A DNA stretch of 64,000 nucleotides from Liolophura sinensis. Lineage: Eukaryota > Mollusca > Polyplacophora > Chitonida > Chitonidae. Shown here piece after piece: positions 136 through 39,000 of the stretch. Position 1 is the first letter of the stretch. The number at the start of each line of letters is the position of its first letter. Made by a program: the position numbers and the translations under genes. The stretch covers positions 5,518,001 through 5,582,000 of the forward strand of contig NC_088300.1 of the NCBI RefSeq assembly GCF_032854445.1. The letters are read 5' to 3'. The notes under the pieces were generated by a model. The model made no database searches, was not told where the DNA came from, and saw nothing but the letters and a program-made list of their open reading frames with translations.

Positions 136-3100
136 ATTCCCGACGTGAGATGGGAAGACATTGGTGGATTGGCCAATGTAAAAACCGAGATCCTGGACAC
201 GATCCAGCTGCCATTACAACACCCGGAGCTCCTGGCTGCTGGTCTTCGCAGATCAGGTCTGTTAACTGTCTGTGATCAGGGGTACCTACAGTCTCTGTCA
301 TGTGATCATGGGCACTTACGATCTTTGTCATGTGATCATAGGCACTTACGGTCTCAGTGATGTGATCATGGGGACCTACTCTCTCTACCATGTGATTATG
401 GGCACTTACGATCTCTGTCATATGATCATGGGGACCTACAGTCTCTGTTCTATGATCACAGGTACCTACGATCTCTGTTCTGTGATCATGGGGACCTACG
501 GACTATGTCGTGTAATCATGGGCACCTACGGTCTCTGTCATGGGATCATGGGCACTTATGGTTTCTGTCATATGATCATTGGGACCTACGGTCTCTGTCT
601 TGTGATCATGTGCACCTACCGCAGCGTAATGACCCAGTAGCCTCTCACCAATGTGGTCGCTGTGAGCTCAAGTCCAGCTCAAGCTGGCTTCCTCTCCAGC
701 CGTACATGGAAATGTCTCCCAGCAACCTGTGGATGGCTGTGGGTTTTCCCAGATTCTGCCCGGTTTCCTCCCACCATAATGCTGGCTGTCGTCGTATAAG
801 TGAAATATTTTTGAGTAGAGCATAAAACACTAGTCATATAAAATAAATAAATACGTTCTCTGCCATGTGATCAGGGTACTTATGGTCTCTGTCATGCGAT
901 CATAGGCACTTACGGTCTCTGTCATGTGATCATGGTTACCTATGGTCTCTGTCACGTGATCATGGGCACTTAAGATCTCTGTCATGTGATTATGGGTACC
1001 TATGGTCTCTGTCATATGATCATGGGTATTGATGGTCTCTGTCATATGATCATGGGTATTGATGGTCTCTGTCATATGATCATGGGTATTGATGGTCTCT
1101 GTCATATGATCATGGGTATTGATGGTCTCTGTCATATGATCATGGGTATTGATGGTCTCTGTCATATGATCATGGGTATTGATGGTCTCTGTCATATGAT
1201 CATGGGTATTGATGGTCTCTGTCATGTTTGAATGCTAAGGTTATGCACTGCAGAGGCCACCGCTATGTCGCTAGCTAAATAGATACATATATATACTGTT
1301 CCTCTGCTGTAGTCTCTCATCATGATGGTGTATGAGTTTGAGTCCAGTTGCAGGTGCAGTGTCTGTGTTTATGCAGTGTCTGTGTTTATACACTAGGTTA
1401 TGCCTAATCACCATCATAATACAGTTTATGCAGCATTATTCATGAACGTTCGTTTATAGCTATCTATTAAAGCTGTGTAAATCCAGAAGATTTTTTTCAT
1501 ATTTATGTAAGCAAACATTTCATTGTAAATATTGTCCTGATTTTGTATTTTTTTCTCTTGTCTCACTTGCCAGGTGTTTTGCTGTATGGCCCCCCTGGCT
1601 CAGGGAAAACACTGCTGGCCAAAGCTGTTGCCACAGAGTGTTCACTTAATTTCTTAAGGTAATCTGTTATGATATGTTCAAGAGAATGAATTTCAAAGGA
1701 ACTTTAAGCAGCAATAATTACTATACATATATTCAGATGTTGACAACTGATATGAAAATCTTACGATTTTGTGTATTTATAAAAATCTTATCAAAATGTT
1801 TTACATTTTAGTGTAAAAGGCCCTGAGCTGATCAACAAGTATATTGGTCAGAGTGAAGAAAATGTGAGAGAAGGTAAGAAGGGAAGCATACTTATATGGG
1901 AATGACTGTAGAAGAGTTTCTCATAATTCAGACTTTGGATTTTTGTGGAGCAGTTCTGTTTTTTGGTTCACTTTATTTTGACCCCTTATTAAAGATGGTC
2001 TGTTAGTGGGTATCATCATAAGTTTTTTATCCTTGACCACATTACCTCCATAGTGAATTGATGGAATTGTGGAAAGCATATAAAAATGCAACATTTTCAG
2101 AATTGATTTTTCCCAGGTTACCTTGATATGCCCAATTCCAAATCTTTCAGCTATTCTCTCTTTGGAGACATAGAGTTGGAGGAATGTTGTCTGAGTCTGC
2201 TTGGTAAAATTATGGCCTTTTTCTAATACATGTAATTAGCAGGTCAAAGAGTTGCTCTTAAGTTTACAGAGTGTTGTCTTTAATTGAAGTTTTGGTTGAA
2301 AGAGGGTAAAATAGACATTTGCCTATGCCTTTGGTAAGAATTATACATTTGTAGTATTCAAAAAATACTTTGACTTACACTAAAAGTATGTTTGAATTTT
2401 TGGATTGAAACAGATGTCCATAGCCTGTGCAGTGTGTTTCCTTATGTCCATGGTTACAAATTTCTCTTTCTATCATCCAGAAGTTTTTCATGAATAGTTA
2501 TACCACAACATGCATTCTTACTCTCTTTTTAAAATCTTTTTCCTTGTTCCAGTGTTCAGCCGTGCACGGGATGCAAGCCCGTGCGTGATATTCTTTGATG
2601 AGTTGGACAGTCTGGCCCCCAATCGAGGCCGTAGTGGGGACTCGGGGGGTGTCATGGATAGGTAAGGCTTATCTTGCCTTGTGAAGAAACTTGCGGCTTG
2701 TGAAGCAAACATATTTTAGGTTTATTTTTTCTTTTGATCACTTCTCCAGATCAAAGCATGATTGTTCATGTGATGAAGGTGCAGCTTGTGTACGTCTTCA
2801 CACTGCATGTGGATTTCCTCCAGTCCACATCATGGTCTTACCTCCGTGCATTCTTCTATAAACCCATGAGTAACAGAACTCTGTCACTGGTTCGGCTTGT
2901 GAGACAGTTTGTGAAGGAGTTTATGCACATTTTTAAGATGTTTTCTCCACTATAAGCCTAACAGCAGAAAAAAATGATTTATTTATTCCTCGGGATTAAA
3001 CGTCATTGTCAAGAATATTGCACATTTACAACAGCGATCAAGTTGTGGATGTAGGGAACCAGTCAGAACGGGAAGGAAATCATTCCACATCATCAGGTAC

Positions 3101-36000: not shown

Positions 36001-39000
36001 CTGTGCACGTGCAGTGCAATGGTGGGCTTAGGTGTAAGACTTACAGTTCATTGGTCCACTGTTTTCAGATGGCCAGTCAGAGGAGACTTGTGCCAGGACT
36101 GATGCTGTGTTCATACCTCGAGCAGGAAGCAGTAGTCATGTGAAAGGTAAAAACAACTTGTCAAATGTGTCTTCAGCAGTTCAGTTTTTGGATAAAATTC
36201 ATGTGAAATAGCCTTTCTGACTGAATATTACATATTTTAGTGAGTGGGTGCACTGATTCTTCTTCTGCATAGTGCTCTTTATTTTTCTCCTCGAATCTGT
36301 TATGTCATTGTGGTTTTTGCAGTGTCTCGTGTTGTCAACGTACATGGCCCCCAAACAGTACCAGGCTGCATGCCTGCTAATCCCAGACATGCAGGCCCTG
36401 TCAAGGTGTTATCTGAAACAGAGGATGGAACACCAGCCATGGAGGAAAGACTGCAGAATATAGAACAGCATTTAGCTATAGACCAAGGTGAGCAGAACTG
36501 CTTAATATAGAGCAGGAGTTAGATATAGACAAGGGTGAGCAGAACTACTAGATATAGAGCAGCATTTAGATAAAGGCAAGGGTGAGCAGAACTACTGAAT
36601 ATAGAGCAGCATTTAGATAAAAACTAGGGTGAGCAGAACTACTGAATATAGAGCAGCATTAAGATAAAAACAAGGGTGAGCAGAACTACTGAATATAGAG
36701 CAGCATTTAGATAAAAACAAGGGTGAGCAGAACTACTGAATATAGAGCGGCAATTAGATAAAGACAAGGGTGAGCAGGACTACTGAATATAGAGCAGCAT
36801 TTACATAAAGACACAATTGAGCAGAACTACTGAATAAAGAGCTGTGTTTAGATATAGTTCAAGGTGATCAGGGCTTCTGAGTACAGAGCAGCATTTAGAT
36901 AAAAACAAGGGATAGCAGAACTAATGAATATAGAGCAGCATTTAGATAAAGACAAGGGTGAGCAGAGCTACTGAATATAGAGTAGCATTTACATAAAGAC
37001 ACAATTGAGCAGAACTACTGAATAAAGAGCTGTGTTTAGATATAGTTCAAGGTGATCAGGGCTTCTGAGTACAGAGCAGCATTTAGATAAAAACAAGGGT
37101 GAGCAGAACTACTGAATATAGAGCAGCATTTAGATAAAACAAGGGTGAGCAGAACTACTGAATATAGAGCAGCAATTAGATAAAAACAAGGGTGAGCAGA
37201 ACTACTGAATATAGAGCAGCAATTAGATAAAGACAAGGGTGAGCAGGACTACTGAATGTAGAGCAGCATTTAGATAAAAACAAGGGTGAGCAGAACTACT
37301 GAATATAGAGCAGCATTTAGATAAAAACAAGGGTGAGCAGAACTACTGAATACAGAGCAGCATTTAGATAAAGACAAGGGTGAGCAGAACTACTGAATAC
37401 AGAGCAGCATTTAGATAAAAAAAAGGGTGAGCAGAACTACTGAATATAGAGCAGCATTAAGATAAAAACAAGGGTGAGCAGAACTGATGAATATAGAGCA
37501 ACATTTAGATAAAGACAAGGGTGAGCAGAACTAATGAATATAGAGCAACATTTAGATAAAGACAAGGGTGAGCAGAACTACTGAATACAGAGCAGCATTT
37601 AGATAAAGACAAAGGTGAGCAGAACTACTGAATATAGAGCAGTATTTAGATAAAAACAAGGGTGAGCAGAACTACTGAATATAGAGCAGCATTGAGATAA
37701 AAACAAGGGTGAGCAGAACTAATGAATATAGAGCAACATTCATATACAGACCAAGGTGATCAGCTGTGTTTAGATATAGATCAAGGTGATCAGGGTTACT
37801 GAGTACAGAGCAGCATTTAGATAAAACTGCGAAGAGCAGAAATGTTGAATATAGAACAGCATAGAGTGACTTTGTAACTAACACTTATCAAGTGACATAA
37901 ATTTTTTGTTTTAGATTCCAAATCAAGTAAAGATATGTTTTCTAGACTCAGGCGCATGGAAAACAGAATCCTGTATTTGGAAAGTTTGTCACCAGAGTAT
38001 TTTAGCCATGGGGTATGTACTTAGTTGTAGTTTATTTGCTGAAGAGTTACTTACAAGGCATACTGTTGACATTATTTAAAAATGGGTTTAAATATTTTGT
38101 TGATATTTGTATTATGAACCAAATGAAATATAGCCATTGGTCAGTTTATGCCTTATGGTTATGCAGCACCTGGGCACACTGAGTTATAGACCTAGATTAT
38201 GAGTGTTCTTTCTTGGATGCAGTCTGTGATACTTAGATTCAGCCGATGTAAATAGGTGTCAGAAAGGGAAGAGGTGAAGAGATACATGTATTTATTTATT
38301 TATTTGATTGGTGTATTACGCCGTTCTGAAGAATATTTCATTTATATAACGGCGGCTAGGATTATGGTGGGAGGAAACTGGGCAGAGCCTGATGGAAACC
38401 CTTGACCATGTCCAGGTTGCTGACAGACCTTCCCACGTACAGCTAGAGATTAAGCCAACCTGAGCTGAACTCACAGCAGCGGCATTGGTGAGAGGCTCCT
38501 GGGTCACTGCCCAGGGCTGGCGTGCTACAAGCTGCATACCCCCACCTCCCCTCACCACCCCTGCTCACGAAAACCCCCAAGATACATGTAGATCCCATGA
38601 AACAGTAAAGGGTTCTGAATGGCTTTTTGAACAAGTTCCTACCCACTGAAAAAAAAATTGCCGGATACAGTGCAGCCTCTTGCTGAAATTTTTAACCTCA
38701 GTAAGAAATAAAGTTGATCTTTATGGTACTACATATCCAGTTTGTTCGATACTAAGGTTGTGTATAGAGCCCTATTTCATAACGTTATATTTGGTAGCCT
38801 ACTCCACCAAAACTCCGGAGAAGACCTCGGGAGCTTCAGATGTATTCGTCTCTGAAATCAGGGGAGATAACACCACAGTACAAGGTCAGAACTATTTGTG
38901 TTATGCATCAGTGACACATAAATGTTAATTATGCGTCTTCCAACAGTTTAATTTTAATATTAAAGTTACATTTGTGGAAGCAATCTCTGCTTTTAGTAAA

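Follow-up and report, generated by a model that had tools for sequence, protein, structure and literature searches.

Tandem arrays across exon-intron junctions of a chiton resemble lancelet mirages and exceed expectation at 5' splice sites

Minisatellite-like tandem duplications of intron-exon boundaries, at both the 5' and the 3' side of introns, have been described in lancelets, in the genes for Adh, troponin C, globins and PGBD5, where the structure was named a mirage and tied to intron gain (PMC3087553, PMC3902484). In the accessible portions of these papers, the lancelet units range from 10 to about 160 bp, AG or GT is kept in many copies, and splicing is reported to be undisturbed. Intron gain through tandem duplication of AG/GT sites is discussed in the accessible text of one of them (PMC3087553). 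As summarized in the available parts of three further reports, new introns have been linked to human minisatellites that lie at exon-intron boundaries within segmental duplications (PMC2812944), the minisatellite of human IFI6 (6-16) supplies several splice donors (PMC4526556), and intronic minisatellites of C. elegans have been linked to multiple alternative splicing (PMC4039745).

Here we describe arrays of the same kind in a chiton, Liolophura japonica, and thus in a different phylum: repeats that span the boundary and carry copies of the splice signal, at both boundary types. The structure itself is already known; its occurrence in a chiton, its frequency and its donor bias were not found in the literature searched, and neither a mollusc mirage nor a count against a null appeared in the titles and abstract openings of the open-licence literature. 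The terms tandem repeat and satellite are absent from the main text, so far as accessible, of the L. japonica genome paper (PMC11068029). What the chiton provides is a sampled frequency, together with an excess at donors over a null. The lancelet work looked at haplotype differences and splicing, whereas the chiton side consists of one assembly, in which undisturbed splicing is suggested by frame and profile continuity only. The AG/GT route to intron gain likewise copies splice signals by tandem duplication, but the chiton copies sit in introns and show no new intron position. The IFI6 minisatellite, reportedly the subject of work by Turri et al. in 1995, is similar in that repeat units at a donor provide further donor sites; there, however, the units are actually used as donors, whereas the chiton decoys are known from sequence alone.

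The window, a stretch of 64,000 bp of chiton DNA that we read with TRF, contains more than 10 minisatellite arrays (Table 1). The initial annotation had placed four of them at exon-intron junctions, and three of these four are indeed junction-spanning tandem repeats: the 47-bp, 20-bp and 59-bp arrays straddle their splice sites, while the 30-bp array of the AAA ATPase gene only abuts its donor.

Table 1. Exons, tandem arrays and one dispersed repeat in the 64,000-bp window (MBIP-like, and mL37 for the exon at 12199..12335, are presumed gene names)
Feature	Position	Strand	Basis
AAA ATPase exon (VCP/Rix7/PEX6 group), donor GT at 257	136..256	+	Pfam AAA 8.3e-28, joined frames
30-bp array, first stretch, abutting donor 256/257	266..619	+	TRF
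Dispersed SINE-like repeat, exactly between both 30-bp stretches	620..856	+	repeated matches
30-bp array, second stretch	857..1225	+	TRF
Exon placed in mL37, first base 12335 after AG	12199..12335	-	sequence
59-bp array straddling the acceptor of the mL37-placed exon	12293..13041	-	TRF, 24-mer test
MBIP-like gene exon	35209..35305	+	open spliced frame
20-bp array straddling donor 35305/35306, 7 exon bases	35299..35416	+	TRF, junction 24-mer test
MBIP-like gene exon	36323..36487	+	open spliced frame
47-bp array straddling donor 36487/36488	36456..37763	+	TRF
46-bp array, non-straddling comparison, inside last MBIP-like intron	39477..40538	+	TRF, exon frame

Two of the straddling arrays share one gene, which we take to be MBIP-like; a PDB search gave no match to it and Pfam gave weak matches only. 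Its seven exons form a single open frame to the stop when the two straddled donors are used. The 47-bp unit consists of the final 32 exon bases and 15 intron bases, and GT is retained in 24 of its 27 intronic copies; if the exon frame continued into the first copy, it would meet a stop at codon 8. In the 20-bp array, GT is retained in two of five intronic copies and lost in the other three. The 46-bp array of the same gene stops 72 bases before the last acceptor. It is the only one of the other long arrays of the window (25, 41/43, 46, 60, 48/49 and 82 bp) that was positioned against an annotated exon, and none of them showed straddling on reading of the sequence. The 41/43-bp arrays occupy 24168-25544, where no gene was recognised around them; the larger (24524-25544) also shows higher-order periodicity at 411 bp.

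The 59-bp unit comprises the first 43 exon bases and 16 intron bases including the AG, which is present in all 11 intronic copies. In the PDB search, the exon downstream of the straddled one matches mL37 with 57.2 bits (i-Evalue 1.3e-14) and the upstream exon matches weakly, with 11.7 bits; a weak Pfam match to PDCD9 was also obtained. Profile and structure searches gave no significant match for the straddled exon. We presume that it belongs to mL37 from its position and a resemblance, and its lower end is set by a putative GTAAGG donor.

The AAA ATPase exon matches many AAA ATPases in the PDB, with single-stretch scores of 265 bits for Rix7 and 259 bits for PEX6; these scores leave PEX6, Rix7 and VCP-like proteins unseparated, and we do not retain PEX6 as a specific name. 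The 30-bp array begins 9 bases into the intron past the donor, and no copy of the 24-mer over this donor with at least 15 of 24 matching bases occurs in the following ∼970 bases. The best alignments between the two stretches of the array are 77-78% identical. The repeat that separates them is presumably MetaSINE-like; it has five more matches in the window (16528-16720, 38288-38506, 41665-41726, 45061-45281 and 50800-51028) and 6798 first-look candidates genome-wide, 40 of which were scored.

A SINE-like dispersed repeat lying within a tandem array might suggest that the arrays are themselves dispersed repeats or introner-like elements inserted at splice sites, but this is very improbable. In a genome-wide search that skips very common words, the matches listed, 13 for the 47-bp unit and six for the 59-bp unit, all fall inside their own arrays. 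Among the matches listed, neither unit recurs at many unrelated introns, as an introner would, and within the limits of this search a dispersed-element origin of the two arrays is refuted. Beyond the window, the 21 straddling units of our sample vary from 30 to 267 bp, and the copied 24-mers contain the host gene's own exon end. An assembly artefact is just as hard to credit. Tandem arrays are prone to misassembly; here, the copies of an array differ among themselves, and the arrays of the window (maximum ∼1.3 kb) are shorter than the mean HiFi read of 8,347 bp given for the L. japonica assembly in the accessible text (PMC11068029), although the ends of the stretches truncate part of the sampled arrays.

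Junctions elsewhere in the genome were sampled through matches at the exon level to six Pfam families (PF00069, PF00501, PF00063, PF00118, PF00171 and PF00225), with repeats ignored at selection. The sample is confined to conserved genes for enzymes, chaperonins, kinases and motors. Each exon was taken with 550 bases per flank. The first sample comprises 211 exons in 156 stretches (243,460 bases, 332 junctions) and the second, of kinesins, 50 exons in 36 stretches (54,895 bases, 75 junctions); together they hold 261 exons and 298 kb, about 0.05% of a genome of 609,464,459 bases in 632 contigs. The first sample kept 211 of 301 matches (PF00063 81/81, PF00171 14/14, PF00118 47/50, PF00501 9/18, PF00069 60/138), leaving out long single-exon matches and tandem paralogues and, for PF00069, others chosen by hand, blind to repeats. 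For kinesin, 106 of 132 matches were used, the 26 omitted being 15 with at least two stops and 11 with no recorded reason, and 36 of 80 stretches were taken in random order. The 407 inferred junctions (195 donors and 212 acceptors) were placed from profile match ends and a splice consensus, not from transcripts; a further 91 of the 498 eligible match ends gave no junction call and lie outside the 407.

Arrays were accepted at a period of at least 10 and a TRF score of at least 60, and an array was counted as straddling when it covered at least 5 bases on each side of a junction and reached less than one unit into the exon. For the null, the same relation of array edges was evaluated at virtual junctions 150-430 bases inside the intron, which presumes that arrays are spread evenly over the initial 430 bases of an intron; if the virtual junctions start at 100 instead of 150 bases, the summed expectation of the two samples is 8.38 instead of 7.28.

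At the 407 junctions we observed 21 straddling arrays against 7.28 expected (ratio 2.89, bootstrap 1.74-4.91), a number reached in none of 20,000 permutations. The excess lies at donors, where 16 of 195 are straddled against 2.97 expected (5.4-fold, bootstrap 2.69-12.52) and the highest count at any single virtual position is 6. In contrast, acceptors are at background, with 5 of 212 straddled against 4.31 expected (ratio 1.16, 0.25-2.86; permutation P = 0.44), and the difference between donors and acceptors is significant (Fisher P = 0.012). Straddling thus affects ∼5% of sampled junctions and ∼8% of donors, about 1 in 12. Arrays make up 9.0% of the sampled bases, and of the 89 arrays sampled, 68 lie across no inferred junction. 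The proposal that minisatellites nucleate at exon-intron junctions in this genome is therefore upheld as an enrichment, but it narrows to a donor effect and leaves most arrays off the junctions. The check suggested with it, an intersection of repeat-finder output with junctions that demands at least 5 exonic bases, does yield an excess, in a 298-kb sample rather than the whole genome.

The distinction between donors and acceptors was noticed only after the first sample, which contains 13 straddled donors and 5 straddled acceptors; the second contains 3 and 0 among its 75 junctions, in the same direction. When the virtual junctions cover 100-430 bases, 18 straddlers stand against 7.06 expected in the first sample (permutation P = 0.00005) and 3 against 1.32 in the second, a small one. 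A test independent of TRF, in which the 24-mer over the junction is sought as a copy in the intron, was positive at 20 of the 332 first-sample junctions and at 3 of the 75 from the second sample. Two junctions (L056, L107) have such a copy without a straddling TRF array and are excluded from the 21. When raw match ends were counted with no splice calling at all, crossings were found at 15 of 244 donor ends against 3.17 expected and at 5 of 254 acceptor ends against 4.69. On reading, four of these 20 crossings (at L039, L178 and two at L149; two donor, two acceptor) were not straddlers, which leaves 13 donor and 3 acceptor ends. Divided by copy number, the donor straddlers exceed expectation both below 2.9 copies (5 against 1.07) and at 4.9 copies or more (10 against 1.07), and not between 2.9 and 4.9 (1 against 0.83). 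A bias of amplification only is not supported by these counts, since short donor arrays are also in excess. We read the donor excess as real.

A few of the sampled stretches deserve separate mention. An apparently single TCP-1 family gene (C8:53,403,693-53,413,032) spans three of them: L031 has a donor straddler, L056 a donor 24-mer copied in the intron, and L149 an exon with arrays near both ends. Straddlers may cluster by gene. In L023 and L149, exons are closely flanked on both sides by different minisatellites that do not straddle by 5 bases, in L023 with gaps of 9 and 30 bases to the match ends; these flanking arrays are possibly eroded mirages. In stretch L114 one myosin head exon occurs in two versions in tandem (551-655 and 1647-1742), perhaps mutually exclusive exons of a muscle myosin. 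Muscle myosin exons, once joined, gave their top scores with 3i5f and next with 1dfk and its kin, myosins of squid and scallop.

Six of the 21 sampled straddling units are divisible by 3, with no bias toward such lengths, and the other 15 would cause a frameshift if a decoy donor were used. To see what becomes of the copies, we joined the 21 sampled arrays with the three of the window. In these 24 arrays, GT or AG is retained in 153 of 166 intronic copies (under a looser matching rule, in 172 of 181). Retention of the dinucleotide, at 0.92, does not differ significantly from the 0.884 of random column pairs (P = 0.16). Exon-derived and intron-derived columns are conserved to similar degrees (0.906 vs 0.877, P = 0.24), with no sign of codon constraint; because the two diverge alike, the copies resemble intron rather than exon. 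Decoy splice sites are thus neither purged nor clearly kept. The GC skew of the sense strand does not differ between donor straddlers and other arrays (P = 0.84), and we discard it as a mark of R-loop-prone units. GC content is higher in donor straddlers (P = 0.03), which may just reflect the exon sequence that they include.

These observations bear on two further explanations. Tandem duplication might be even and neutral over the genome, hitting junctions by chance, with exon hits surviving only where splicing hides them. The abundance of minisatellites in the sampled bases, the acceptors, which fit the even-placement null, and the splice dinucleotides, neither lost nor clearly kept, all agree with this, but 16 straddled donors against 2.97, with no virtual position above 6, do not, and the excess keeps its direction when splice calling is dropped. 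We regard this explanation as unlikely, though worth keeping in view. Selection might instead retain or favor decoy donors as spare or alternative 5' splice sites, which could also add to the explanation that we prefer. Human IFI6, in the accessible account, does use its repeat units as extra donors (PMC4526556), most intronic copies have the dinucleotide intact, and a first test of retention was significant (0.968 vs 0.932 for other such dinucleotides, Wilcoxon P = 0.007). However, that version left out five arrays, one in which the consensus GT is lost and four with a single intronic copy, and restoring them gives the P = 0.16 above. The single intronic copy at L147 has lost its GT, as have three of five copies of the 20-bp array, and use of a decoy would shift the frame for 15 of 21 units. 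Selection for decoys is accordingly a rather doubtful account of the excess.

We consider it probable, at about 0.72, that the arrays are mirages in the lancelet sense, tolerated tandem duplications across the junction, with duplication or survival raised at donors. A tandem duplication would cover the last part of an exon together with the first part of its intron, and copy number would then shift by ordinary minisatellite turnover. The copy nearest the exon would stay the used splice site and the remaining copies would become intron, leaving the protein unchanged. Duplication over a donor would be tolerated since splicing continues from the donor closest to the exon. That this site remains in use is suggested by the open frames and by profile continuity or homology: profile positions continue over the array-bearing intron from 385 to 384 in L031, 223 to 220 in L040 and 130 to 128 in L143 (TCP-1 and myosin). 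The claim that duplication enlarges existing introns fits one intron, in which 1276 of 1427 bases are array; growth itself was not observed.

Donors might tolerate duplication in that a 5' splice site requires only a few bases, whereas duplication at an acceptor could separate the AG from its tract and branch point and would thereby keep straddling there at the background level. Some further factor would have to lift duplication or survival at donors several-fold. Our first choice is raised initiation near the 5' splice site, favored over differential survival or selection since an excess is already present among donor arrays with two to three copies. More tentatively, and with slightly more doubt than confidence, we propose that tandem duplication in this genome has its hot spots at 5' splice sites, with about 1 in 12 donors affected, at about five-fold the intronic background.

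Mirages were previously, in the accessible reports, a matter of single lancelet genes, and a frequency in percent with a donor bias in a mollusc makes genome-wide counting possible. The chiton arrays lend themselves to two questions: by what means the spliceosome passes over numerous decoy donors close by, and whether arrays of this sort give rise to new introns. If donors are duplication hot spots, decoy donors and pieces of exon would be stored in large numbers in the introns of this genome; taken with the lancelet cases, this would suggest that duplication linked to donors is a general process in animals.
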